The notes under the pieces: model-generated
Database searches by the model: none
What the model was told of the DNA's origin: nothing
What the model saw: the letters and a program-made list of their open reading frames with translations, nothing else
Program-made: the position numbers and the translations under genes
Source: Actinomycetota bacterium
GTDB lineage: Bacteria > Actinomycetota > Acidimicrobiia > Acidimicrobiales > Ilumatobacteraceae
Assembly (NCBI GenBank): GCA_016871395.1
Contig: VFYV01000015.1
Span: forward strand, 1 to 45,208
Direction: 5' to 3'
Length of the DNA: 45,208 bases
Shown here: positions 1-12,007 of the stretch, piece by piece
Numbering within the stretch: the first letter of the stretch is position 1
Layout of the letters: each line of letters starts with the position of its first letter

Positions 1-296
1 ACATCCCGCCGTTGTTCGACAACTGGCACGGCTTCGACATCCTCGACCGCAAGCGCGTGGTTCGCCCGCGCGAATCGATCGAATGGACCCGTCGCATCGT
101 GGGCGAATGCGGCATCTTCGCTGGCATCAGCACCGGCGCGGCTCTGGCCGGTGCGGCCAAGGTGGCCTCGGAGATTGAGGAAGGCACCATCGTGTTCATC
201 GTGTGTGACGGGGGTTGGAAGTACCTGTCCACCGGGGCCTACACCGACGATCTCGACGAGGCCGAGGCCCGCGCCGAGAAGATCATCTATTTCTGA
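1..296 (+). CDS. Cysteine synthase family protein (CysK/CysM-like), 3' end only
   Basis: Partial gene: the reading frame is open from base 3 and stops with TGA at 294-296, so about 97 C-terminal residues are visible. The segment GISTGAAL followed by a beta-strand and GWKYLST matches the C-terminal end of PLP-dependent O-acetylserine sulfhydrylases (fold type II), where the glycine-rich stretch helps to hold the PLP phosphate. The family makes cysteine from O-acetylserine or a related acceptor and sulfide. The lysine-bearing N-terminal half lies outside the window, so substrate choice (CysK, CysM or cystathionine-synthase-like) cannot be decided. Confidence 0.85.
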   Translation, partial: IPPLFDNWHGFDILDRKRVVRPRESIEWTRRIVGECGIFAGISTGAALAGAAKVASEIEEGTIVFIVCDGGWKYLSTGAYTDDLDEAEARAEKIIYF

Positions 297-348
297 CCCT
301 TCGCCGGGCCAAGATTTTTGCTCCTCCCCGCACAGGTAGAGGGCGGTC

Positions 349-354
349 TACCGT
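349..354 (+). promoter_or_regulatory. Putative -10 box of the nuclease/helicase cassette
   Basis: TACCGT lies 10 nt before the ATG at 365. It fits the TAnnnT boxes seen ahead of other operon-first genes here and would start transcription within a few bases of the start codon. A weak AGG (358-360) is also present. Confidence 0.4.
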
Positions 355-364
355 TCAGGTTGAT

Positions 365-1453
365 ATGAATCCCGTTCCGGTGCCCTTTCCCGCCAACCGG
401 CGCGACACTCGTCGACGTTTCGAACAATGGGTCAAACACCCCGGCTGCGGCGCGAACCTGGTATCGGCGGTGCACAACGTCAAAATGGGTGCCGTCGCCC
501 GACGCGAGAACCCGAACGCGCCCCGCGAGGGACAGTCGGCCTTCGCTCTGGCCCGCGGGCGTCGGTTCGAGGCCGGGTTGGTGGCGAATAACGGCGAGCG
601 CCTGCGGTTGGCGATGGTCAGGCAGGAAATGTTCGATAGTCCCAACCCCCGATTTCTCGATTTTCGCATCTCCATCAACGGCGGTCCGCTGACCGACATT
701 GATGATGCCATCGCGCACACCGAGAAGTTTTTGCGGGTCCTGGCCGACGATCCTTCTTTCGAAGGGGTGGTATCGAGCGCCTCCTTACGCATCCCCAAAG
801 GTGTGATGCTGCCGGAAGCCACTCTGATCATCGACGCCCTGGCGGTGCGCTCCGTCGATGGACGACCCCATGTCTCGGTGGGTGAGATCAAGACCTACGC
901 TGATCGCGGTGGTCACACCTCGAAGACCGATTTGGCGCACGCTCGCGCCCAGATGGGGCTGTACGTCCATGCCTTGGGTTTGGTGCTCGATCAATGGGAC
1001 TTGTCCGACAAGATCGCGGTTTCCTTCGTGGGGTTCCTGGTCCTCACCAATCCCGGGTCGAACAATCCGGTCGTGCGGGTCGGCGAGGACCTGCGCTATC
1101 AGGCCGAGCGAGCGCGTAAGGGATTCGAACTCATGGAGGCCGCGGCGCACGATCTGTCCGAACTGGTGGGCGACGACGACGGTGACGGACCCGCCGATTT
1201 GTTCGACATGGTGCTGGCCGCACCGACGTCGTTCGCCGATGTATGTCCGTCGTTCTGCGAACGCGCACCGGCCTGTCACGCCAAGGCGCTGACCGAGGGC
1301 GACGGTGCCGTCCTCGGCGACGATGTCGCACGGTTCCTGAATGGCCTGTCTCTGCACCGGGCCGACGAGCTCATGGGCGGTGCTCGTGCTCGCAACGAGA
1401 TCGAGCGCGATTTCGTTCGCCGCATGAGTCGACCCTTGGACGGTGCGCCGTGA
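365..1453 (+). CDS. Cas4/RecB-like PD-(D/E)XK nuclease with Fe-S cysteines
   Basis: A 362-residue protein with the PD-(D/E)XK nuclease core: D157 in IIDAL, then E174-I-K176 in VGEIK, then Q196 and Y200 in the downstream helix, the arrangement of RecB/Cas4-type exonucleases. Three C-terminal cysteines (C294-x3-C298-x5-C304) plus an isolated N-terminal C28 match the iron-staple pattern in which a 4Fe-4S cluster clamps the nuclease fold (AddB, Cas4, Dna2). Expected activity is metal-dependent cleavage of DNA ends or single strands. The ATG at 365 was chosen because it follows a -10 box and the longer open frame upstream overlaps the preceding gene. The stop overlaps the next start (GTGA at 1450-1453), implying translational coupling. 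No cas1/cas2 or CRISPR array is nearby, so CRISPR adaptation is not supported. Confidence 0.75.
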   Translation: MNPVPVPFPANRRDTRRRFEQWVKHPGCGANLVSAVHNVKMGAVARRENPNAPREGQSAFALARGRRFEAGLVANNGERLRLAMVRQEMFDSPNPRFLDFRISINGGPLTDIDDAIAHTEKFLRVLADDPSFEGVVSSASLRIPKGVMLPEATLIIDALAVRSVDGRPHVSVGEIKTYADRGGHTSKTDLAHARAQMGLYVHALGLVLDQWDLSDKIAVSFVGFLVLTNPGSNNPVVRVGEDLRYQAERARKGFELMEAAAHDLSELVGDDDGDGPADLFDMVLAAPTSFADVCPSFCERAPACHAKALTEGDGAVLGDDVARFLNGLSLHRADELMGGARARNEIERDFVRRMSRPLDGAP

Positions 1454-2955
1454 GCAACGAACTCCGAACAACCCGTCGACTACTGGCCTGGCACGAAGGA
1501 CACCCGCTCCCTCGTGGCGAGAAGGTCAACCTGCACGTCGGTGACGACGACGAGATCATGTGCCTGTCGTTCGTGCGCATGGGTGGCGAGTCGCTCCCGT
1601 GGGGGGTCGTGTTCGCCCGCCCGCACGAGGAACCGCGGTTGTTCACGGTTCCCGACCCCCGCGACCGCGACATGGTGGCCGACATGATGGTCGAGGTAGG
1701 GCGGGCCTTGCTCGCGCATTTCGGGCACCCGAATCACGCCCCCGATGTCGACGGAGCGAGCGCAAGCTACGAGTTTCGTCAGCTCTGGTTGCCGGCGACG
1801 TCGCACCTCGAGTTGCTCCATTCGCTTGCGTTCGCCTACGCGCGCACGCGGCGCGACCGTCCCGACGTGCAGGTGCTGCGAGATCTCGGCAATCTCGCCA
1901 ACTGCCTCTACGTCGAGTCCCAACGGCCCGGTCAGCAAACGGTCATGGTCGCTTCGGTCGCCCTCGTCACGGCATTCGACTTCCCGACCTCACCAGTGAG
2001 GCAGGCCCACCTCGGACATCTTCTGGCATGGCTCGGTCGCGAAAAGACGCGTGACTCGCGCCTGCGGGCGGCGACTCTGGCCGAGCAATCGTCGGTAGCG
2101 ACAGCGCTCGACCCCGAATTCGAGCGCCGATATCTTGCGCCTCTCGTCGACGAATGGAATACGCCGCTTCGCGAGCAACGGGCGACCGCGGGCAAGAAAG
2201 TCGCGTCGAAGATCGCGGGCGTGTTGGGTGATCAGTTGCGGCATCGTCATTCGTTGACTATCGAGGCCGTGGCGCGGCTGCGTCGAGATCCCCGCGGCCC
2301 CAACACGGGCCTGGCCGAACTCGTTCGTGTGAGCGTCGACAAGTTCCGACGGGTGTGGTGGGAGCACGTGCTGCGCGAGAAGAATGGCGACCCCGACAAG
2401 CGACCTTTCTGGCCGGGTTTGCGGGGGGATCTGAGTGCGCAACAGGCCGCGTTCGCCTTCCAGCAAAGGGTCGCAGCCGATCGGCTCGCGATGAGCGCTC
2501 TCGTCCACGGTGACCGCGAGTTGCAGAACGAGGAACTTCTGCGCGGGCACGGAATTCGAGCCAAGGTGATCTCGGTCGACGGCGGCGGTTCGCGTTGGGC
2601 CGTCGCGTTCGACTTTCCGGATCTCCCCGACGTGAAGGTGGGCGGGACGCTAGCCATCGCTGGTGCGGCCAAACTGTTGGTGAAGGTGGTCTCAGTGAAC
2701 CTCGACGATCGACAAATCGTCGTGGCGCCGCAATGGACGGGAGCGAAGTATCCCTCGGGTCCGATGTCGAAGCGAGCGGGCGATCCGACCTGGCGGGGAC
2801 GTCGCATGGTTCTGCTCGAGGACTTTCCGGCCGCACTCACCGAGCGGACGAGCTTGCGCGTTCACGATCGGGCCGAGAGCGGATTCGACATACTCGATTA
2901 CTTCCAACGGCCGGTGGCGGTCGAAGTTGACCTGGACGAAGGCGACGAACAATGA
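1450..2955 (+). CDS. Unknown 501-aa protein of the nuclease/helicase cassette
   Basis: No family is recognised. The GTG start at 1450 overlaps the preceding stop. The first 270 or so residues are mostly predicted helical with some strands, rich in Arg, Leu and Ala; residues 290-365 are helical and contain a Trp-rich stretch (RVWWEHVL). Residues 366-430 alternate short beta strands with glycines, resembling a small beta-barrel. UPF1-like helicases carry such a barrel (domain 1B) just before the Walker A segment, and the next gene starts almost at its Walker A motif. One reading, which is inference, is that this protein supplies the accessory N-terminal part of a split helicase. No catalytic motif, signal peptide or membrane segment is seen. 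The stop overlaps the next ATG (ATGA at 2952-2955). Confidence 0.6.
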   Translation: MSNELRTTRRLLAWHEGHPLPRGEKVNLHVGDDDEIMCLSFVRMGGESLPWGVVFARPHEEPRLFTVPDPRDRDMVADMMVEVGRALLAHFGHPNHAPDVDGASASYEFRQLWLPATSHLELLHSLAFAYARTRRDRPDVQVLRDLGNLANCLYVESQRPGQQTVMVASVALVTAFDFPTSPVRQAHLGHLLAWLGREKTRDSRLRAATLAEQSSVATALDPEFERRYLAPLVDEWNTPLREQRATAGKKVASKIAGVLGDQLRHRHSLTIEAVARLRRDPRGPNTGLAELVRVSVDKFRRVWWEHVLREKNGDPDKRPFWPGLRGDLSAQQAAFAFQQRVAADRLAMSALVHGDRELQNEELLRGHGIRAKVISVDGGGSRWAVAFDFPDLPDVKVGGTLAIAGAAKLLVKVVSVNLDDRQIVVAPQWTGAKYPSGPMSKRAGDPTWRGRRMVLLEDFPAALTERTSLRVHDRAESGFDILDYFQRPVAVEVDLDEGDEQ

Positions 2956-4292
2956 GCGCGGTCGTTCGTGAACTTCGCTCGTTCGTCGCGGGGTCCGGAG
3001 TCGTCGCGGTGGTCAAGGCTCCACCGGGTTCGGGCAAGACCCGAACGCTGGTCGAATCACTGGAAGCCGGCATCAAGAAGAGACTGCGCATTCTGGTAGC
3101 GGCTCAGACCAACAACCAGGTCGACGAGATCAGTGATCGCATCGCCGAGCGCTACTCCGATCTGTCGGTCGTGCGTTTCGCGAGTTCGGGTTATCCCCGA
3201 CCACCCGGAACGCATCCGCGCGTGGTCTACATCGAACGAACGAGCTCCATCCCCGACGGGCCGATCGTGATGGTTGGAACCGTGGCCAAACTCGCGCTCT
3301 CGAGTTTCGACGGCGACTTCGACATCTTGTTCGTCGACGAGGCCTGGCAGATGGCGTGGGCGGACTTCCTCACCATTCGCCAGTCCGCCGATCGCTACGT
3401 CTTCATCGGCGACCCCGGTCAGATCCCCCCGACAGTGTCCATCGATGTCGACCGTTGGGAATCGTCCGATCACGGCCCCCACCTCGCGGCTCCCCACCTG
3501 ATCATGGCCAACCCACAATTGGCGTCCGTGCGCACCGAATTGCGGTTGCCGACGTGCCATCGCCTGCCCTACGACTCGGCCCGTCTTGTCAATCGCTTCT
3601 ACGACTTCGAGTTTGACAGTCAGGCCAAGCCGGGTGAGAGGTTCGTCAGAGCCGTCAAGCGTCCAGCCGCCGCTGCCCTCGCGGACGATCTACTCGATCG
3701 AGCGCTCGACGCGATGTGGGCGCACCGTTGGCCGTCGACCACAGCAATCATCCAGTTGCCGACGCCCGACGGCGGCCTGCCGGCGGGCACCGACCTCAAG
3801 TTGGCCCAGTACACCGCCGAGATTGTCGCCCGGCTCATCGCTCGTCGGTGTGAGGTATCGACCGATTCGAGTGAAAAGAACGCCCCGCGGTTGTTGCGGC
3901 CGCTCGACATCGGCGTCGTCTCGACGCACAACCTCATGAACACTGCCGTGCACAAAGAATTGCTCAAGTTCTCGCCCAAGTTCGCGGACGTGCGGGTCAC
4001 CACCCCCGAGCGTTGGCAAGGATTGCAGCGACCCGTCATGGTCGCGGTACATCCGCTCTCGGGTGTGAGGTCCCCCTCGTCGTTCGACCTCGAGACCGGT
4101 CGGCTCTGTGTCATGGCCTCGCGCCACCAATCTGCGTGCTTCTTCGTCACGCGCGATCACGTCGCGGCGACCCTCAACGATCACCTTCCGCTCGCCGATC
4201 AGGCACTCGGTTGCCCAGACGCGGTGGGCAAGGGTCACGCCCTTCACTCTGATTTCCTCGAATACCACCGCGAAAGGAACCTCGTTGTCTGA
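2952..4292 (+). CDS. SF1 (UPF1/Dna2-like) helicase
   Basis: A 446-residue ATPase with SF1 motifs in order: Walker A APPGSGKT (23-30), motif Ia around 50-60 (AAQTNNQ), Walker B FVDEAW (127-132), motif III GDPGQIPP (153-160), motif IV around 197-206, motif V around 349-362 (ERWQGLQ) and motif VI with arginine-finger candidate R391 (ASRHQS). The DEAW box and GDPGQ motif point to the UPF1/Dna2 (SF1B) branch, so 5'-3' movement on nucleic acid is expected from the family. Only about 22 residues precede Walker A, so the usual 1B barrel is absent and may come from the upstream gene. The protein is coupled by overlap to both neighbours. Confidence 0.85.
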   Translation: MSAVVRELRSFVAGSGVVAVVKAPPGSGKTRTLVESLEAGIKKRLRILVAAQTNNQVDEISDRIAERYSDLSVVRFASSGYPRPPGTHPRVVYIERTSSIPDGPIVMVGTVAKLALSSFDGDFDILFVDEAWQMAWADFLTIRQSADRYVFIGDPGQIPPTVSIDVDRWESSDHGPHLAAPHLIMANPQLASVRTELRLPTCHRLPYDSARLVNRFYDFEFDSQAKPGERFVRAVKRPAAAALADDLLDRALDAMWAHRWPSTTAIIQLPTPDGGLPAGTDLKLAQYTAEIVARLIARRCEVSTDSSEKNAPRLLRPLDIGVVSTHNLMNTAVHKELLKFSPKFADVRVTTPERWQGLQRPVMVAVHPLSGVRSPSSFDLETGRLCVMASRHQSACFFVTRDHVAATLNDHLPLADQALGCPDAVGKGHALHSDFLEYHRERNLVV

Positions 4293-6204
4293 CCAGAAAA
4301 TCCACATTCCCGTGGGAGCGACCGGTGACGGGCGTTTCACGACCGCGTGCGCGCACCGAGAGGTGAATAATCGGAACCACGCGTACGACGATCTCGCGCG
4401 CACCGAACCGAGCGCGTTCGCCCAGCTACTCATGGAGAAGGGTATCGAACACGAGGCCATGGTGTACGAGCGACTGGAGGTCGCTCACGGCGTTGTGCGA
4501 CTCCCCGCCATGAGCGCTCCCGCGTTGATCAAGGACACCGATTCGGCGATGGTCAACGGAGCGCGCATCATCATGGGCGGAGGGCTGCCGATCGTTTCCG
4601 GTCGCTCCGGTAAACCCGACATCTTGATCCGTGTCGACGCGCCGAGCACGCGGGCAGCATGGGGATACGTCCCCGTCGACGTCAAGAGCCATCGAGGATT
4701 CAAGGGCACCACCAAGGCTCGTCAATGGTTGGTCGGATCGATTGAGTCGCCATTCCTGCACGACGCGACAACTCTGGACGAGATCGGCACCCCTTTGCTC
4801 GACGACTCACTGCAACTGGCGCACTATTGGCGCATGCTCGAGGAGTCGGGCTGGATCCCGCGGGTTGATCCTGTTGGCGGAATTTTCGACGTCGACGCCC
4901 GTCTCGTCTGGCGCCGTCTCGACATAGCGCTCTGGAAACACGAACATCCCGTTACCGAGATCACCCAACAACGGAGCGCTCTCGAGATCCTCGATCTTGA
5001 ATGGGAGTTCCGTTGGAATGCGGTGACCCGCATGCTCGACGGATCCGATCCGACGACCGAACCGATCCTCCACGGGAACTGTGCGACGTGCGAGTGGAAG
5101 AACGTCTGCTACGAAGAACTCGACGCCTCCGAACACGTGTCCCTCGTCGCGGGGGTGACCAAGGCTCACGTGAAGAAGTTTGCGACCATCGGGGTGCGAA
5201 CCCAGAGTGAGTTGTCTCGTCTCGACGTCCGTTCAGCCGCCATGTTCGATCGGGCCAAGTCGCGTGGCGTCGACCTCGGAAAGATTCGGGTCCTCGCGAG
5301 CGAGCACCCGAACCCCGACGATCCGGTCAGCGTCCTCACCGGTCGGAGCAAGAAGACGTTGGAGTTCCTGACTGCGGAAGGCTTCGTCACGGTGTCCGAT
5401 CTTTCCTGGCTCGAGCCCCGGCTCGCCACGATGCCCTGGTTCGCTCACGTGACCCGACGAATCGACGGTGCGCGCGTCCGATTGCACCCGGATGGTTTGC
5501 CACATTTACCGCGGGACGAGCGAATTCCAGTTGTGCCACGCGCCGACGTCGAAATCGACGTTGACATGGAGAATTCCGACGTGGTCTACCTGTGGGGGAC
5601 CAACGCGACCGTTCGTGACGGTGTATCCGCTCCGGCGAGCGTGCGACCCGGCTACCGACCCTTCCACACGTTGGCCGGCGGGCACGTCGACGAACCGGGG
5701 GCCTTCGTGACGATGTGGAATTGGATGCACACGGTTATCGCCGAGTGTGACCACCAGAACGCGACCGTTCGGTTCTACTGCTACACCGACGCCGAGAACA
5801 CCAAAATGCACGAGATCGCCTCCCGATGGCTCGACTTCCCGGGTATGCCTGACCACGAGGCCATCGACGCTCTCTGTGCGACCGACCACTGGGTCGACCT
5901 CAAGGAGACGGTCGAGGGTCTCGTGTGGCCCACGGATTCGTTGAGTCTGAAGGAAGTGGCCCCGTTGGCCGGGTTCTCCTGGCGTGACGAGGACGCCGGT
6001 GGTGATAACTCGATCCTCTGGTACGAGATCGCGGTGACGACCGATGACGACTCCCAACGTCGTGAGATGAGCGAGAAATTGCTCCGTTACAACGAGGACG
6101 ACGTGTTGGCCACCAAGGTGTTGCGCGAGTGGCTGGACGACGGCCTCAACGGACGTGGTCCGGTGTTCCCGAGCGTCGTGACCTTGGACGAAATGTTCGC
6201 TTGA
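4285..6204 (+). CDS. TM0106-type RecB-like nuclease fused to RNase H-like domain
   Basis: A 639-residue protein. The N-terminal part holds a PD-(D/E)XK nuclease (D112 in GKPDIL, D132-V-K134, Q177, Y181) followed by C266-x2-C269-x5-C275, with C22 as likely fourth Fe-S ligand. Residues about 285-380 look like helix-hairpin-helix DNA-binding segments. The C-terminal part resembles an RNase H-like 3'-5' exonuclease, with acidic D427-M-E429 and a final YNEDD motif (602-606). Family members are often single large proteins ending in a UPF1-like helicase; here the helicase is a separate upstream gene. The TTG start at 4285 was chosen because GAAAGGAA (4272-4279) sits 5 nt before it. It overlaps the helicase gene by 8 nt. 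Confidence 0.75.
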   Translation: MSDQKIHIPVGATGDGRFTTACAHREVNNRNHAYDDLARTEPSAFAQLLMEKGIEHEAMVYERLEVAHGVVRLPAMSAPALIKDTDSAMVNGARIIMGGGLPIVSGRSGKPDILIRVDAPSTRAAWGYVPVDVKSHRGFKGTTKARQWLVGSIESPFLHDATTLDEIGTPLLDDSLQLAHYWRMLEESGWIPRVDPVGGIFDVDARLVWRRLDIALWKHEHPVTEITQQRSALEILDLEWEFRWNAVTRMLDGSDPTTEPILHGNCATCEWKNVCYEELDASEHVSLVAGVTKAHVKKFATIGVRTQSELSRLDVRSAAMFDRAKSRGVDLGKIRVLASEHPNPDDPVSVLTGRSKKTLEFLTAEGFVTVSDLSWLEPRLATMPWFAHVTRRIDGARVRLHPDGLPHLPRDERIPVVPRADVEIDVDMENSDVVYLWGTNATVRDGVSAPASVRPGYRPFHTLAGGHVDEPGAFVTMWNWMHTVIAECDHQNATVRFYCYTDAENTKMHEIASRWLDFPGMPDHEAIDALCATDHWVDLKETVEGLVWPTDSLSLKEVAPLAGFSWRDEDAGGDNSILWYEIAVTTDDDSQRREMSEKLLRYNEDDVLATKVLREWLDDGLNGRGPVFPSVVTLDEMFA

Positions 6205-6216
6205 TAGTGGCGTCCA

Positions 6217-7050
6217 TCAACGCCCCACGATCAGGGTCAGCAGTCCGATCACCATCACCAGTGACGAGATGAGGCGCCGAGGACCACTGCCCTCTTTGAG
6301 AACCCTCCAGCCGATGAGGGCGGCGAACACCACGCTGGACTCCCGCAAAGCGGTGACGTATCCCACCGGGGCGCGTCGCACCGCCAGTAACACCATCCAG
6401 TAGGTCACCAAAGAGATTGCGCCCGTCACCACGTACTGGTGCCACATGGAGGGCACACTCGCCCGCATCTCTTTCCAACGTCGGCGGAGCACGCCGTGAA
6501 CCGTGGTACCGATGCCACCGGTGACGAAGATGGACATCGCGTACGCGCTCCCCGTGGTCGATCGCGAACCCTTGCTGTCGATCACCGTGTACGTTCCGAT
6601 GAGCGTTGCCACCACCAATGCGGGCCACACAAGGCTCCACCGCACGTGTCCGGACAACAGCACCAATCCGCCAACCACCACTAGAATGCCGATCATGGAG
6701 ATCGCCGACAGACGGTCCGACAGGAACAGCACTCCGCCGATGGCGGCGAACAACGCTCCCGCGCCGCGAGCGATGGGGTAGGTGACGCTGAAGTCGGCGA
6801 CGTCGTAGGTGTGTCCGAGGCGTCCGAAGTAGAAAGTGTGGACGACACCGCTCGCGGCCGCCCAACCCCACGCGCTCCAGCCGAGGTCGCCTGACAATGT
6901 CGCCGCCAAGGCGTAGGGAAATCCGATCACCCCACCGGCTACGCACATGCCCCACAACGCCAACCAGCGGTCCGCGGATTGTTTGACGCGTAGGTTCCAG
7001 CCGGCGTGAAGCACGGCGGCGCCCAGTGCCAGAGCGGTGGCGACGAACAC
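6217..7050 (-). CDS. EamA/DMT-superfamily transporter
   Basis: A 277-residue integral membrane protein with about ten hydrophobic helices in two repeats, the usual size and architecture of EamA drug/metabolite exporters. The second repeat carries the typical R-E-S-S/V-V-F-A-A segment near its end (helix 9). Substrate cannot be inferred. The GTG start at 7050 lies 5 nt downstream of the Dabb gene stop, so the two are co-transcribed; a longer open frame upstream only overlaps the Dabb gene and is arginine-rich nonsense. It converges with the nuclease cassette with only 12 nt between the stops. Confidence 0.8.
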   Translation of the reverse strand: MFVATALALGAAVLHAGWNLRVKQSADRWLALWGMCVAGGVIGFPYALAATLSGDLGWSAWGWAAASGVVHTFYFGRLGHTYDVADFSVTYPIARGAGALFAAIGGVLFLSDRLSAISMIGILVVVGGLVLLSGHVRWSLVWPALVVATLIGTYTVIDSKGSRSTTGSAYAMSIFVTGGIGTTVHGVLRRRWKEMRASVPSMWHQYVVTGAISLVTYWMVLLAVRRAPVGYVTALRESSVVFAALIGWRVLKEGSGPRRLISSLVMVIGLLTLIVGR

Positions 7051-7055
7051 GCGTC

Positions 7056-7373
7056 TCAGGAACCGTCGGGAACCGCAAACTGGATGGAGGCACGAGTGTC
7101 GATGAAGGGTGCGGTGTACGTCTCGATGAAAATCTTGTGATCGGGGTGGTCTCGATAAACGAAGTAGTCGTCGATACTGTCGAACTCGGCCGTGACGCCG
7201 TAGTCGTAGGTGCCGGGGTTGACGCCCAGGTTGGCGCCGAAGTGGTACGAGCGGATTTGAGGGATTTTGCGTCGAAGTTCGGCCAATGCCGCAGTGGTGC
7301 GCTCGGCATGGTCCGTGGGCGTATCCGGTTTCCAATTGAAAAGAACGATGTGGCGGATGCGTTGTGCGGACAT
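7056..7373 (-). CDS. Dabb (stress-responsive A/B barrel) domain protein
   Basis: A 105-residue single-domain protein. The opening RHIVLFNWKPDT, the central YHFGANLG and the late YRDHPDHK segment match the dimeric alpha/beta barrel (Dabb) family, small dimeric proteins related to ferredoxin-like folds, some of which are polyketide cyclases; most bacterial members have no known substrate. It is the first gene of a two-gene minus-strand operon with the EamA exporter and has a leaderless-type promoter. Confidence 0.8.
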   Translation of the reverse strand: MSAQRIRHIVLFNWKPDTPTDHAERTTAALAELRRKIPQIRSYHFGANLGVNPGTYDYGVTAEFDSIDDYFVYRDHPDHKIFIETYTAPFIDTRASIQFAVPDGS

Positions 7374-7379
7374 GACACC

Positions 7380-7385
7380 AATCTA
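7380..7385 (-). promoter_or_regulatory. Leaderless-type -10 box of the Dabb gene
   Basis: On the minus strand TAGATT is followed by a 6-nt spacer and then the ATG at 7373. No Shine-Dalgarno site is present. Confidence 0.55.
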
Positions 7386-7456
7386 AACCGCCGTCTCGAA
7401 CCTCGGGGTATTCACCGTGGTGAGCGCCATGCGAGGAACAATCGGCTGATTTCTCG

Positions 7457-7462
7457 TAGCCT
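7457..7462 (+). promoter_or_regulatory. Leaderless-type -10 box of murI
   Basis: TAGCCT is followed by 7 nt and the GTG at 7470. No Shine-Dalgarno site is seen. Confidence 0.55.
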
Positions 7463-7469
7463 CTGCGAC

Positions 7470-8312
7470 GTGAGCGCCACCGCCGACATCACCGGACCCA
7501 TCGGTCTGTTCGACTCCGGATTCGGGGGTCTCACGGTGGCCCGCGCGGTCATCGACCTGCTACCGAACGAGGATGTCATTTACATCGGTGACACCGGCCG
7601 GTATCCGTACGGCGACAAGAACCCCGACGATGTGCGCGTCTACGCCCGCGAATTGGCCTGGAGTCTGGTGCGTGACTTCGGGGCCAAGGCCATTTTGGTG
7701 GCCTGCAACACCGCCGCGGCCGCTCTTCCGGTGCATGCGTTGGAAGCCGAGTTCGCCGCCGAGGGAACGAGCGTTCCGATCCTCGGGGTGATCGAACCCG
7801 GCGCGCGCGCCCTCGTGCACTCCACGCGTTCGGGGGACATCGGTGTCATCGGCACCATCGGCACCATCGGGTCGGGGGCCTACGACCGCGCCGTGTCCCG
7901 AGCGGCGATCGGGGCCACCGTTCGACTCACCAGCGCCGCGTGCCCCGGTTTCGTGGAGTTCGTCGAACGTGGCCGCACGACGGGACCCGAGGTCCTTCTT
8001 CTCGCCGAGCGCTTGCTGGCACCCATTCGCGACGCCAAGGTGGACGCGCTGTTGCTGGGTTGTACGCACTATCCCTACCTCGCTCGGGTGATCACCGAGG
8101 TTCTCGGAAGCCACGTCGTCTTGGTGTCCTCGGCCGATGAGACCGCGTTCGCCCTACGCGAGCAACTGAGTGACATGGGACTGTTGCGGTCGGACGGCCA
8201 TCGGCCCCGTCATCGATTCATGTCCAGCGGGGACGTCTCGTGGTTCGAGACCCTCGGGCAGAAACTGCTGGGCCCCGAATTGGTCGACGCCGAGACCTGG
8301 ACCCCACGCTGA
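7470..8312 (+). CDS. murI: Glutamate racemase
   Basis: A 280-residue cofactor-independent racemase that converts L- to D-glutamate for peptidoglycan. The two catalytic cysteines are visible: C79 in VACNTA and C198 in GCTHYP. The N-terminal [10 protein letters not shown] motif (D15, S16) and [11 protein letters not shown] are also family hallmarks. Length is normal. The GTG start at 7470 is supported by a -10 box 7 nt upstream; the longer open frame upstream is antisense to the Dabb gene. It is followed by rph and rdgB, a grouping common in actinobacteria. Confidence 0.95.
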
Positions 8313-8367
8313 AGACGAACGATCTATCTCGATCACGACCGACACCACGACGAGCAACGGAGAAGAC

Positions 8368-9132
8368 ATGAGCAGCACCGGACACCGCGCCGACGGACGC
8401 CTCCACGACGAACTTCGTCCTCTGTCGTTCGAGCGTGATTTCACCGAGATGGCCGACGGCAGCGTGCTGGTGTCGTTCGGTCGCACGCGCGTGCTGTGCA
8501 CCGCCAGCATCGACGAGGATGTGCCGCGCTGGATGAGGAACAGTGGAAAGGGCTGGGTGACCGCGGAATACTCCATGCTTCCGGGTTCGTCCCCCGAGCG
8601 CGTCGACCGCGAAGCGGCCAAGGGCAAGCAGAGTGGTCGAACCGTCGAAATACAGCGACTCATCGGCCGCAGTCTGCGTGCCGCGTGCGACATGCACCTG
8701 TTGGGCGAGCGACAAGTCGTGGTGGACTGTGACGTGTTGCAGGCCGACGGTGGTACGCGAACCGCCTCGATTTGTGGCGGCTACCTCGCGCTCCACGATG
8801 CCCTCACCCGACTGGTGCGGTCGGGGGCCATCGCGCGACATCCGCTCACCTCGTTGTGTGCCGCTATCAGCGTGGGCATCGTCGGCGGATCACCCGTGAT
8901 CGATCTTCCCTACGTCGAGGACAGCAGTGCCGAGGTCGACATGAACGTCGTGATGCTCCGTGACAAGGTCTCTGGTCAGGCGCGCTTCGTCGAAGTTCAG
9001 GGCACCGCCGAGGGCATGGCGTTCACGCGGAGCGAGTTGGACTCCTTGCTCGGTTTGGCCGAGAACGGACTGGGCGAAATCTTCGACCTGCAGTTGCAAT
9101 TGATCGCCAGCGAGCCCGCACGGCGCTCGTGA
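8368..9132 (+). CDS. rph: Ribonuclease PH
   Basis: A 254-residue phosphorolytic 3'-5' exoribonuclease that trims tRNA 3' ends using phosphate. The family opening (R-x-D-G-R near residue 7, [10 protein letters not shown]), the ARG-rich [17 protein letters not shown] segment and the [14 protein letters not shown] motif are present. It forms a hexamer in the family. The ATG at 8368 is preceded by ACGGAGAAG (8357-8365), a plausible ribosome binding site. The stop overlaps the rdgB GTG start by 4 nt. Confidence 0.95.
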
Positions 9133-9752
9133 ACGTGTCGGCGTCGCCCAACCGGCCCGTGTTGGTGTGCGCCTCGGCCAACCCCGACAAGGTCCGCGAG
9201 ATCGAACTCCTCCTTGTCGGGCTCGTCGACCTGCGTCCACGGCCCGCCGCTGTCCCCGATGTCGACGAAACGGCCGACACGTTGGTCGGCAACGCGCGTC
9301 GGAAGGCCCAAGCCGTTCGCGACGCCACCTCGATGGCGGCGGTGGCCGACGACACCGGTCTGTTCATCGAGGCCCTGCCCGGAGAACTGGGCGTGCGCAC
9401 CGCTCGCTACGCGTCGGATCAACCGCGACACGCGACCGATCCCTACCGAGCCAATCGGGACAAGTTGTTGGTCGCTTTGTCGGACATCGCCGACGCTCGC
9501 GGTCGACGGGCGCGCTTCGTCACCGTGGTGGTGGTGTCGTATCCCGACGGAACCGAACTCGTCGTCGAGGGAGAGTGCTCGGGAACCATCGCCACCGAGG
9601 AGCGCGGTGAGGGTGGCTTCGGCTTCGATTCGTTGTTCGTTCCCGATGAGGGAGATGGTCGCACCTTCGCCGAGATGTCCGACGGGGAGAAGAACTCCCT
9701 GTCGCACCGCGCTCGAGCATTCGTGGCTTTGGTCGGTGCGCTGCCGGATTGA
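9129..9752 (+). CDS. rdgB: XTP/dITP diphosphatase (RdgB/HAM1)
   Basis: A 207-residue house-cleaning pyrophosphatase that hydrolyses non-canonical purine triphosphates such as dITP and XTP to monophosphates, keeping them out of DNA. The substrate-binding SANPDK motif near the N terminus, the catalytic VADDTGLFI segment with paired aspartates, GGFGFDSLF and the final SHRARA are present. The GTG start overlaps the rph stop, giving an rph-rdgB coupled pair. It converges on the next gene with 4 nt between stops. Confidence 0.93.
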
Positions 9753-9756
9753 CCGG

Positions 9757-10824
9757 TCACCAATGACGAAGTTCCACCGGCCACACCTCGGTCACCTCTT
9801 CACCCCAGCGCGGGACCACGTGGATGTCCGCGTGGAGGGCGATGGTCGGGTCGATGTGCGCGGGTCGCACCGCCACCCGCTCGCCGATCGCCGGCAGTGA
9901 GCCGTCGTTCATCGAAAAGGTGGTGTGCTCGTCGCTGCAGAACCACACCGTCGCCTCGTCGATGTACGGGTTGCCGTGGTCCATTCCCAACGATTTGAGC
10001 CCCACGTCGATCACGGCCCAGGACCCGGAGTCGCGGGACGTGGTGGATACCGCGGTGCCCACGACGTAGAGGGCTTGCTCGAAGGGGAGTGGTTGTGCCC
10101 CGTAGCTGGAGTCCATCAACGCGTAGCTGCCGGCTTGCACCTCGTTGATTCGACCCAACACGGGATCGTCGTTGTCGAACACGTGGTAGGTGCCGGTACC
10201 TCCGGCCGAGATGATGCGACATTCCTCGCCGGTCACGTCGACCAACGAGTCGAAGGCCTCCACCAACGAACTCATGCAGGCCTTGACCTTGCGCGGCTTG
10301 TCTTCCTCGGGAACGGTCATCAGGTGACCCTCGTAACCCATCACGCCACGAACCGTCAGTCCCGCCGCCTGGGCACGTTCGGCGAGCGAGCGAGCCTCCT
10401 CGGGCGCACATCCGCAACGGGGCAGGCCCACGTTCACATCGATCAACACGTGACGCAGTCCGGCGGCGGCGGCCAGGTCGACGGTCACGGTCGAATCCAC
10501 CGCCACCGTCACCGTGATCCCGCTCTCGCGCTCGGCCGCCGCCATCGCCGCCAATCGGTGCGAATCGACGGTTTCGTTCGCCAACAGCAGGTCGCTTCCG
10601 ACACCGGCCCGAGCCATTCCGACCACCTCGAGGGGCGTGGCACAGGTGAAGGAGTGATGCCCGGCTTCCACTTGACGACGGGCGATCCCGAGACATTTGT
10701 GGGCCTTGACATGGGGACGCAACCTGGAGCCGGGACGGGCCGCCGACATGGTGGCGAGGTTCCGCTCCAGAACCTCGAGGCTCAGCACCAACGCGGGGGT
10801 GGGCAGTTCGGGCAGAGCGACCAT
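9757..10824 (-). CDS. D-threonine aldolase-like PLP enzyme (DSD1 / alanine racemase-like fold)
   Basis: A 355-residue fold-type III PLP enzyme. The RPHVKAHK motif (36-43) carries the PLP lysine, probably K40 by alignment with alanine racemase. The C-terminal metal site reads H323-I-D325. In this family D-threonine aldolases use His plus Asp, whereas eukaryotic D-serine dehydratases use His plus Cys, so aldolase-type chemistry (D-threonine to glycine and acetaldehyde) is favoured but not proven. The ATG lies 13 nt beyond the 3' end of tRNA-Leu on the same strand, so a shared transcript is likely. A weak AAAAGAG precedes the start. Confidence 0.78.
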   Translation of the reverse strand: MVALPELPTPALVLSLEVLERNLATMSAARPGSRLRPHVKAHKCLGIARRQVEAGHHSFTCATPLEVVGMARAGVGSDLLLANETVDSHRLAAMAAAERESGITVTVAVDSTVTVDLAAAAGLRHVLIDVNVGLPRCGCAPEEARSLAERAQAAGLTVRGVMGYEGHLMTVPEEDKPRKVKACMSSLVEAFDSLVDVTGEECRIISAGGTGTYHVFDNDDPVLGRINEVQAGSYALMDSSYGAQPLPFEQALYVVGTAVSTTSRDSGSWAVIDVGLKSLGMDHGNPYIDEATVWFCSDEHTTFSMNDGSLPAIGERVAVRPAHIDPTIALHADIHVVPRWGEEVTEVWPVELRHW

Positions 10825-10837
10825 GGCTCTTTTCTAG

Positions 10838-10919
10838 TGCGGGCGGAGGGACTTGAACCCACACTCCTTGCGGAACAGGAACCTAAATCCTGCGCGTCTG
10901 CCAGTTTCGCCACGCCCGC
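10838..10919 (-). tRNA. tRNA-Leu (anticodon UAG)
   Basis: An 82-nt cloverleaf read from the minus strand. The acceptor arms GCGGGCG and CGCCCGC pair perfectly with discriminator A. The anticodon stem CAGGA/TCCTG encloses the loop TTTAGGT, giving UAG (complement of 10883-10885) for the CUA codon. The long variable arm is typical of class II tRNA-Leu, and the T arm contains GTTCAAG. CCA is not encoded. Confidence 0.95.
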
Positions 10920-10937
10920 GCGTGTCGTGCGTGCCAC

Positions 10938-10943
10938 AGGCTA
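10938..10943 (-). promoter_or_regulatory. Putative -10 box of the tRNA-Leu transcript
   Basis: TAGCCT on the minus strand lies 18 nt upstream of the mature tRNA 5' end. It shares two bases with the -10 box of the divergent EthD gene on the plus strand. Confidence 0.5.
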
Positions 10944-10947
10944 CGGT
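10942..10947 (+). promoter_or_regulatory. Leaderless-type -10 box of the EthD-like gene
   Basis: TACGGT is followed by 6 nt and the ATG at 10954. It overlaps the minus-strand TAGCCT box of tRNA-Leu, forming a back-to-back promoter. Confidence 0.55.
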
Positions 10948-10953
10948 CTGACG

Positions 10954-11244
10954 ATGATCAAAGTGAGCGTCTACTACCCGTCATCGGAGGGCTCCACCTT
11001 CGACCACGACTACTACCGAACCACCCATGTTCCGTTGGCTGTCGCGGCTTGGAAGCCCACATCCACCGTCATCGACAAGGGCGTCAACGGTCCGCACGTG
11101 GCTGCCGTGCACATGACTTTCGAATCGATGGAGGCGATGGGTGCCGCCCTCGGATCACCTCTCACCGCCGAGGTGCAGGCTGATGTGCCGAACTACACCA
11201 ACATCGTCCCGGTGATGCAGATATCCGAGGTCGTCGAGGACTGA
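10954..11244 (+). CDS. EthD domain-containing protein
   Basis: A 96-residue protein with an opening IKVSVYYPS strand, a YYRTTHVPLA helix (the conserved H of EthD proteins) and the late YTNIVPVMQISEV strand. The family forms dimeric ferredoxin-like barrels and is often of unknown role; the founding EthD supports ether degradation in Rhodococcus. No partner oxygenase is nearby, so the function is open. The ATG at 10954 follows a leaderless-type promoter; the much longer open frame upstream is antisense to the aldolase and tRNA. Confidence 0.8.
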   Translation: MIKVSVYYPSSEGSTFDHDYYRTTHVPLAVAAWKPTSTVIDKGVNGPHVAAVHMTFESMEAMGAALGSPLTAEVQADVPNYTNIVPVMQISEVVED

Positions 11245-11254
11245 TTCGTTCGTC

Positions 11255-11929
11255 TCAGTCGGCGGGCGCGATGCGATAACTGCAACGGCCGTCACCAGCC
11301 AGGGCGTGTCGGGTGCGCTCGACGGAAACATCGGTGCCCAGCGCAACTCGGAAAGCCGTCAATTCGGATTCGCACAGCGAGCCACACGACTTGGCCGCGT
11401 CACTGATCGCACAGTGGTGTTCGGTGAGGATCATCGCACCGTCGCTCGCCGTCACCGCCTCGGCTCGGTAACCCTCGAGGTCGCGCTGACGAGCCAGTCT
11501 GGCCACCCGTTCACTCAGGGGTCCGCGTCCGATCGACTCGCGGTAATTCGCCGCTTGTCGCTCGCCTCGACGGGCGAGGACGCGTTCGAGAGCGTCGGGT
11601 CCGAGTTCGCTTTCGATCGCGCTCAGCAAGTCGACGACCAGATCGTCGTGGCGATCGGGGAAGGCGGTGGGGAAGACGTCGACGATCGAGGATGGACCGT
11701 CGCGATCGAGGGTCCAGTGCAGAGCTGGTCGCCCCCGATGTCGCGCATCGATCGGGTGGTCGGCGGTGTCGCGGCGAACCACCCCGTCGACCTCCAGTTG
11801 CTCGAGATGCTGTCGCATCGCGGCGTCGCTCACGCCCATCAGTCGGGCCAGGTCGGGGGCGGTGGCCGACAGGACGGTCTGAAGGTGCTCGACGATGCGT
11901 TGTTTGGTTCCACCGCCGAGGGAAGTCAC
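11255..11929 (-). CDS. SufR-like Fe-S-sensing transcriptional regulator
   Basis: A 224-residue protein with an N-terminal winged helix-turn-helix (about 8-55: TKQRIVEHL, then a recognition helix at MRQHLEQLE) and a C-terminal cysteine cluster C173-x8-C182-x3-C186, then C216 in DGRCSYRI. This matches SufR-type regulators that bind a Fe-S cluster and repress Fe-S assembly genes. No suf genes are in the window; the divergent neighbours are PLP enzymes of the cysteine synthase type, so a link to cysteine or sulfur supply is possible but unproven. The GTG start follows a TAGCCT box, and a palindrome lies in the shared promoter region. Confidence 0.8.
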   Translation of the reverse strand: MTSLGGGTKQRIVEHLQTVLSATAPDLARLMGVSDAAMRQHLEQLEVDGVVRRDTADHPIDARHRGRPALHWTLDRDGPSSIVDVFPTAFPDRHDDLVVDLLSAIESELGPDALERVLARRGERQAANYRESIGRGPLSERVARLARQRDLEGYRAEAVTASDGAMILTEHHCAISDAAKSCGSLCESELTAFRVALGTDVSVERTRHALAGDGRCSYRIAPAD

Positions 11930-11935
11930 GCCGCG

Positions 11936-11941
11936 AGGCTA
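11936..11941 (-). promoter_or_regulatory. Leaderless-type -10 box of the SufR-like gene
   Basis: On the minus strand TAGCCT is followed by a 6-nt spacer and the GTG at 11929. Confidence 0.55.
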
Positions 11942-11952
11942 CCCGAATATCG

Positions 11953-11966
11953 CAAGTGGTCACTTG
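11953..11966. promoter_or_regulatory. Palindromic operator candidate between sufR-like and PLP genes
   Basis: CAAGTG-GT-CACTTG is a perfect 6-bp inverted repeat with a 2-nt centre. It lies about 30 nt upstream of the SufR-like start codon, over the expected -35 zone, and 54 nt upstream of the divergent PLP gene. Its position suits autoregulation; binding by the SufR-like protein is inference. Confidence 0.5.
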
Positions 11967-12007
11967 GCAAATACCGGGTCCAGCACGCCTTTCGGGCGAT
12001 CCTTTGA

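Follow-up and report, generated by a model that had tools for sequence, protein, structure and literature searches.

The window analyzed here comprises positions 1 to 45,208 (45,208 nucleotides) of contig VFYV01000015.1 (GenBank assembly GCA_016871395.1), from an Actinomycetota bacterium of the family Ilumatobacteraceae. Near its 5' end lie four plus-strand genes, designated G1 to G4 (positions 365 to 6204; Table 1), each of which overlaps its successor, with a GTGA overlap between G1 and G2, an ATGA overlap between G2 and G3, and an overlap of 8 nucleotides between G3 and G4. The original prediction, made from the DNA letters and translations, described such a set of overlapping genes for two nucleases, a superfamily 1 (SF1) helicase, and an unknown protein, placed between housekeeping genes; the coordinates, recurrence of the overlaps in relatives, and conservation of active-site and motif residues in alignments agree with this description. 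The four genes are not chance open reading frames, since their order and overlaps recur in relatives. A cysteine synthase gene ends on the 5' side of the cassette, and on the 3' side lie genes for a DMT-type transporter and a 105-amino-acid protein (no match in NCBIfam), followed by murI, rph, and rdgB. The source genome (1.95 Mb in 43 contigs) contains one copy of G3.

Table 1. Features of the G1 to G4 cassette in the window
Feature	Position	Strand	Description
G1	365..1453	+	362 amino acids, ATG start; Cas4/Dna2-like PD-(D/E)XK nuclease, four conserved cysteines, iron-sulfur cluster probable
G2	1450..2955	+	501 amino acids, GTG start; without accepted database match
G2 residues 249-364, read as stalk	2194..2541	+	long helices in AlphaFold2 (AF2) model; putative stalk
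G2 residues 368-457, read as domain 1B	2551..2820	+	six-strand beta-barrel in AF2 model; profile match to TM0106 helicases
G3	2952..4292	+	446 amino acids; SF1 UPF1/Dna2-like helicase core, motif I at residues 24-30
G4	4285..6204	+	639 amino acids, TTG start uncertain; TM0106-type RecB nuclease with cysteine cluster plus RNase_H_2, without helicase

The conserved unit is G1-G2-G3, not four genes. Our hidden Markov model search covered 89 loci (the window, 9 from a genome sample, and 79 from named records), or 87 after two duplicates were dropped; the named-record loci derive from the best 80 of 135 confirmed places, and their counts by lineage are not a census. Genes in the fetched loci were called with a simple GC-frame script, some of whose calls are wrong, and the mutase-like, MIP, and phosphatase-like genes mentioned below were named by eye. 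All three genes are full length in 80 of the 87 loci, and order and single strand are kept in 80/80; among the seven incomplete loci, six are truncated where a contig stops, and in L034 two stop codons break the G2 gene. With the start codons chosen here, G1 overlaps G2 in 76 of the complete loci and G2 overlaps G3 in 52. Distances in the three gene trees are also highly correlated, with r values of 0.989 to 0.996 across 80 loci and 0.959 to 0.992 across the 16 non-Streptomyces loci, for which the maximum in 999 permutations was 0.615 (this test left out L007 and L017, duplicates of L034 and L038, respectively, and the 7 loci without three full-length genes). The idea of a conserved four-gene unit therefore holds, across genera and phyla, for G1-G2-G3 and fails for G4, which is lineage specific. 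The order and co-inheritance of the three genes are direct observations, and from gene overlap, order, and congruent trees we infer that their products form a physical complex.

In the window's genus and its sister group, 9 loci (the window counted) reach far enough past G3, and G4 follows the trio in every one of them, with an overlap of 8 nucleotides in 6 and 17 nucleotides in 3. Further loci of the window's genus have G4, and none lacks it where the contig continues. No G4 was found in the other trio loci read, outside these two groups; one of them, L018, has only a 147-amino-acid TM0106-like stretch, about 7.5 kb away, where the fetched sequence runs out. Because the loci read have G4 behind the trio in no group other than the window's genus and its sister, we rejected the idea that the ancestral cassette had four genes. 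G4 scores 168.7 bits against TIGR03491, over the cutoff of 97.45, and also contains PF13482 (RNase_H_2), with no helicase family match in Pfam. Residues D112, K134, C22, C266, C269, C275, D425, D427, E429, D538, Y602, and D606 are kept in 10/10 aligned rows, Q177 in 9/10, and D132, the acidic residue of the second nuclease motif, in 8/10, the two rows without it being short TM0106 proteins from loci that lack the trio. We take the RNase H-fold residues to be DEDD-like, and this domain is probably an exonuclease. A search for TM0106 proteins covered 99 genomes of the order. Of its 17 best-scoring frames, 15 were 1,078 to 1,470 amino acids long, and the other two were 849 and 675. Seven further places above the cutoff have frames of 564 to 711 amino acids, the window included (711-amino-acid open frame); no G1, G2, or full G3 adjoins the other six, two of which are on contigs shorter than 7 kb. 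G4 belongs to this short TM0106 type, which is also found without the trio. At two other loci (L163:7944-11388 and L164:5203-9727), a TM0106-like nuclease gene overlaps a separate helicase gene that comes after it, so that a TM0106-type machine is split there as well.

At E ≤ 1, searches of Pfam, NCBIfam, PADLOC, and PHROGs gave no family for G1. In an alignment of the window's protein with 36 of 77 fetched sequences, D157, E174, K176, Q196, and Y200 are invariant in 37/37 rows, as are four cysteines, C28 ahead of the PD-(D/E)XK core and C294, C298, and C304 behind it. One cysteine before and three after the core is the arrangement of Cas4, AddB, and Dna2, and the four G1 cysteines probably hold an iron-sulfur cluster. 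When an AF2 model of G1 (predicted local distance difference test score [pLDDT], 85.5) was compared to the PDB by Foldseek, the top match was Dna2 (5ean; E = 1.4e-4; template modeling score [TM-score] by query length, 0.29), followed at E ≤ 0.001 by Cas4 SSO0001, a DinG, MGME1, and the Argonaute-associated Cas4 protein ACE1; AdnA and RecE had E values just above 0.001. The modeled fold of G1 is thus nearest to Dna2 and Cas4 nucleases.

G3 matches AAA_11 in Pfam at 63.3 bits, with AAA_12 and a partial match to TIGR00376 (IGHMBP2 family; 53.4 bits, cutoff 348.9) falling under their cutoffs. A match to UvrD-helicase (24.1 bits, cutoff 23) covers residues 17 to 69 only, and G3 has no nuclease domain. 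In an alignment of the window's protein with 23 of 72 fetched sequences, the helicase motif residues are invariant in 24/24 rows, save for a T/S alternation in Walker A. By these motifs and profile matches, G3 is a UPF1/Dna2-type SF1 helicase motor. A stalk with an OB-fold is given as a hallmark of the entire UPF1/DNA2-like family in PMC11090510. G3 starts about 20 residues ahead of motif I, and there is therefore no space there for a stalk and domain 1B.

The protein encoded directly ahead of G3 had no accepted match in Pfam, NCBIfam, PADLOC, or PHROG searches, and we rejected a TetR-like regulator as its identity because the Pfam TetR_C_16 match (E = 0.13) is under the cutoff. An AF2 model of G2 (pLDDT, 87.0; predicted TM-score, 0.87; 39 sequences, the window's and 38 of 73 fetched) has, from the N terminus to the middle, a small alpha/beta part and then a helical section. 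Long helices are predicted at residues 249 to 278, 288 to 311, 330 to 352, and 356 to 364, and the C-terminal end consists of a six-strand barrel and one helix, after which a disordered tail stands directly ahead of G3. In profile comparisons, residues 354 to 430 of G2 aligned with the stretch that precedes motif I in fused TM0106 helicases from the same order, with an hhalign score of 30.4 (single-comparison P = 0.002), compared to a best of 21.7 in 200 column shuffles (0/200 as good); controls with reversed profiles, with the N-terminal half of G2, or with G1 scored 15 to 18. UPF1-like helicases (Sen1, nsp13, SDE3, and a coronavirus replicase) also keep recurring in the fold lists of G2, none of them significant singly. 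Because position, fold, and profile agree, we read G2 as carrying the missing part of the motor, probably its absent stalk and domain 1B. Its description as unknown stands as far as database matches are concerned and probably gives way for this C-terminal region.

Together, these features resemble those of Dna2, which has a Cas4-type nuclease with a cysteine cluster and a UPF1-like SF1B helicase; the nuclease has its counterpart in G1 and the motor in G3, and G2 may hold a stalk and barrel, to which its AF2 model and profile comparison point with matches that are each weak. In contrast to the one chain of Dna2, the functions are divided over three separate genes in 80/80 complete loci, no counterpart was found for the N-terminal part of G2, the trio is bacterial, and some lineages have a fourth nuclease. 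The trio seems to work like Dna2, yet without the single chain, one of the features that define Dna2. Among TM0106 (TIGR03491) proteins, of which G4 is a member, the helicase of fused members has a G2-like barrel before motif I, but a helicase in the same chain is usual in the order, whereas G4 lacks one and is operonic with a separate helicase. AddAB, AdnAB, and RecBCD share with the cassette an ATP-driven helicase and a RecB-type nuclease, but their motors are UvrD-type and fused to nuclease domains, whereas here a UPF1-like motor accompanies a free-standing nuclease. The original prediction had set the cassette apart from AddAB, AdnAB, and CRISPR modules and considered a role outside the standard catalogues plausible, and our comparisons agree with this. 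AddAB and AdnAB were rejected on helicase type (AAA_11 at 63.3 bits versus the partial UvrD-helicase match), and a CRISPR adaptation module was rejected because G1 matched no Cas4 model, the flanking genes are not cas genes, and repeats are absent (no direct repeats of at least 20 bases within 120 bases in positions 1 to 12000). No system cataloged in PADLOC 2.0.0 fits, as only G3 matches, to the helicase parts of several systems; Mokosh, Hhe, and Gabija share SF1 helicase similarity with parts of the motor, but G1, G2, and G4 have no PADLOC model at E ≤ 1. The CnuH helicases of CoCoNuTs, as described in PMC11090510, also combine a UPF1-like helicase, a stalk, and an OB/barrel domain within a nuclease system, but here the barrel is in a separate gene. 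No McrB partner was seen beside the window's genes, in a survey that included no specific search for McrB, McrC, or coiled-coil partners. No description of the gene set was found in the literature searched, including passages of PMC11090510, PMC12839542, and PMC10853773, a body of text with little coverage of subscription papers and preprints.

Titles of trio-bearing records include Acidimicrobiia, Arthrobacter, Candidatus Palauibacter (Gemmatimonadota), Streptomycetaceae (many), and Pilimelia, and the trio is also present in metagenome-assembled genomes (MAGs) of Planctomycetales and of Candidatus Eisenbacteria, a candidate phylum; the loci outside Actinomycetota are MAG contigs, for which misbinning is possible. 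Two MAGs titled Bifidobacterium breve (L027 and L039) encode a G1 56 to 57% identical to that of the window, and this organism label looks wrong. G2 was detected in 4/148 genomes of the window's order, its own included, and in 9/396 genomes of a phylum sample, five of these being weak Streptomyces-type matches; one of the nine, a weak match in G438 with no G1 or G3 nearby, is probably spurious. G3 was found in 14/24 genomes of the window's genus, many of them incomplete, and in 4/7 of the good ones. Within this genus, the block occupies either a site between cysM and the DMT gene (L129 to L131, L133, and L134) or a site downstream of a phosphatase-like/MIP-like gene pair (L017, L135, and L136). 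In three genomes with the block elsewhere (G387, G649, and G646), cysM adjoins the DMT gene with 15 to 36 bases between them; a fragment of G4 lies at the window's site in G639, and in five genomes in which no cassette was detected, another gene lies next to the DMT gene. Identity between the window's and the G387 cassettes is 58% for G1, 48% for G2, and 53% for G3, and identity to the window's housekeeping proteins is 88% for cysM in G387 and 80 to 83% for rph in G646 and G649. In the window's order, the trio is most likely an accessory block, patchily distributed and found at two chromosomal sites within one genus. We rejected a phage-borne module, as none of 99 pattern matches in IMG/VR was confirmed as a G1 relative and none was found in phage records.

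Defense-type genes neighbor the trio in 9 of the 11 loci outside the G4 lineages and Streptomycetaceae. A convergent UvrD helicase gene lies beside it in five loci, four of which have type III restriction genes (Res in L006, L007, L008, and L018; Mod in the first three), while in the fifth, Arthrobacter L033, the same UvrD-type gene is accompanied by a HEC-05/GmrSD-like gene. The UvrD-type protein of L008 is 914 amino acids long and ends in a C-terminal PDDEXK_1/Cas4-like domain, and these UvrD-type, type III restriction, and trio genes may make up a composite defense locus. In the MAG represented by both L007 and L034 (Acidimicrobiia), G2 and the UvrD-type gene are in pieces (1304-2863 and 4169-6913), which may reflect decay of the island. 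Other neighbors are a ZorB-like gene, a gene for a large AAA_12/MTES_1575 protein, and HEC-05 in Palauibacter L031; genes that Pfam assigns to SIR2_2/nSTAND and to Schlafen group 3 helicases in L036; Schlafen group 3 helicase and type IV restriction-like genes in L037; and a type III Res-like gene in L141. On a Streptomyces plasmid, a diverged trio lies just ahead of four Wadjet genes. When 64 of 79 flanking proteins from ten loci (Pilimelia outside) were compared to PADLOC at E ≤ 1e-20, they matched 68 models, compared to 4 models for a rough control of 87 of 111 proteins from ten hand-picked windows in three of the genomes. These model counts inflate the contrast; per protein, the top 25 models of the case set trace back to four Res proteins, four of UvrD type, and three Mod proteins, versus about three proteins in the control. 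The case set contains one wrong frame (L006:11830-16413), and the UvrD gene of L006, outside the scan, was found by tblastn.

A tblastn search with G3 returned 49 plasmid records, 26 from Rhodococcus and 7 from Mycobacterium. On four non-Streptomyces plasmids (L103, L104, L105, and L107, from Rhodococcus, Euzebya, Mycobacterium, and Xylanimonas), the motor gene stands behind genes for proteins of 390 to 450 and about 60 amino acids, with a VWA-like gene on 3/4 of them and a MoxR or AAA gene ahead in two. Against G2, the 390- to 450-amino-acid protein of Euzebya scores 27.7 bits, which makes it a weak relative, and those on the other three plasmids, at about 8 bits or less, are marginal; G1 was not found among the 24 plasmid genes tested, except on the Streptomyces plasmid. 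These G2-like/G3-like pairs possibly represent a related but different system, and G2-G3 may be the older pair.

With moderate confidence, we read G1-G2-G3 as a Dna2-like nuclease-helicase distributed over three subunits, with an accessory DNA-degrading role in this lineage. The split-Dna2 anatomy is the firmer part and is likely, and a defense role in the window's lineage is favored only slightly. In such a machine, G3 would be an ATP-driven RecA-fold motor, whose polarity and DNA substrate we infer, and G2 would contribute, besides its N-terminal part, a stalk and a 1B barrel, elements built into the motor chain itself in other UPF1/Dna2-like helicases. G1 would act as an iron-sulfur-type nuclease that cuts the strand fed to it by the motor, and in the window's genus the arrival of G4 would have given the machine another RecB-type nuclease, fused to an RNase H-fold domain. 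In the window's lineage, the machine would most likely degrade DNA, whether invading or damaged, starting at ends or gaps, and a diverged version would now be part of the near-core genome in Streptomyces. More broadly, and tentatively, as we rate it at a little below even, the trio could represent an unnamed immune family built on a divided Dna2-like nuclease-helicase, spread through defense islands in several phyla and on plasmids, joined by lineage-specific partners (TM0106-type, UvrD-nuclease, Schlafen-type, or SbcCD), and domesticated to near-core status in Streptomyces.

Several observations weigh against the main reading of a split, Dna2-like machine. For its anatomy, the G1 fold matches have low TM-scores (0.18 to 0.33 by query length among the listed nucleases), hhalign itself assigns the G2 barrel match a probability of 14%, and Foldseek comparison of the G2 model to the PDB and BFVD returned nothing at E ≤ 0.001. 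Sen1 (rank 20, E = 0.39) and nsp13 (rank 50) in the PDB list are not significant, nor is the SDE3 helicase in BFVD (rank 14, E = 0.12). For its role, L035 has no recognized defense neighbor, and the two proteins tested from L036 have no PADLOC model. The chief argument against a purely immune role is prevalence in Streptomyces, as G2 was found in 114/121 sampled Streptomyces-type genomes (a genus label inferred from matches of up to 95% identity to the named Streptomyces-locus query), which fits housekeeping better than immunity. A phosphoglycerate-mutase-like gene also stands just upstream of the trio in 50 of the 57 checkable loci among L041 to L102, SbcD/SbcC-type genes lie directly downstream of it in Pilimelia (L072), and the window's cassette has housekeeping flanks. 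These four observations favor a chromosomal repair or end-processing machine, a Dna2- or AddAB-like resection system that Streptomyces has retained and that was lost or relocated in other lineages; its proximity to defense genes would reflect shared mobility. We consider this alternative possible but rather doubtful, as it is opposed by the patchy distribution in the window's order, the defense-type genes beside most relatives outside the G4 lineages and Streptomycetaceae, and the plasmid copy that adjoins Wadjet. A repair or defense role, as originally proposed, is plausible.

Two further explanations fare less well. The products could be four independent nucleic-acid enzymes that are merely cotranscribed, with G2 unrelated to the helicase, as short G4-like TM0106 proteins without the trio and the lack of a significant database or fold match for G2 would allow. 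This is unlikely given the strict G1-G2-G3 order, the congruent trees, and the fact that actinobacterial plasmids, with no G1 found among the genes tested, have weakly G2-like genes immediately ahead of G3-like ones. An RNA-targeting system, in which the UPF1-like motor and RNase H-fold domain act on transcripts as predicted for CoCoNuTs, is about as unlikely: the substrate could be RNA, since G4 has an RNase_H_2 domain and the UPF1-like clade includes RNA helicases (PMC11090510), but the listed fold neighbors of G1 are mainly DNA nucleases (Dna2, Cas4, MGME1, AdnA, and RecE).

Should the trio serve in defense, bacterial immunity would gain a Dna2-like class; should it serve in repair, it would be an actinobacterial end-processing pathway alongside AdnAB. 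A UPF1/Dna2 helicase split at the 1B/1A boundary, if true, would inform how such motors are constructed. The diverged trio in most sampled Streptomyces-type genomes, two of whose three proteins have no match in Pfam or PADLOC, is a tractable gap. There, a gene for a small acidic protein lies downstream of the trio in 39/52 loci (L041 to L102), and some Streptomyces-type genomes have extra, more diverged G2 copies. In one of them, equal-score G2 paralogues are located near both ends of a 10.7-Mb contig (G571:C1:21480-22946 and 10654192-10655658), in a terminal-inverted-repeat-like arrangement. Elsewhere in the window, the minus strand carries a BhcC-like (3-hydroxy-D-aspartate aldolase) gene at positions 9757 to 10824, which scores 162.9 bits against a model cutoff of 690.

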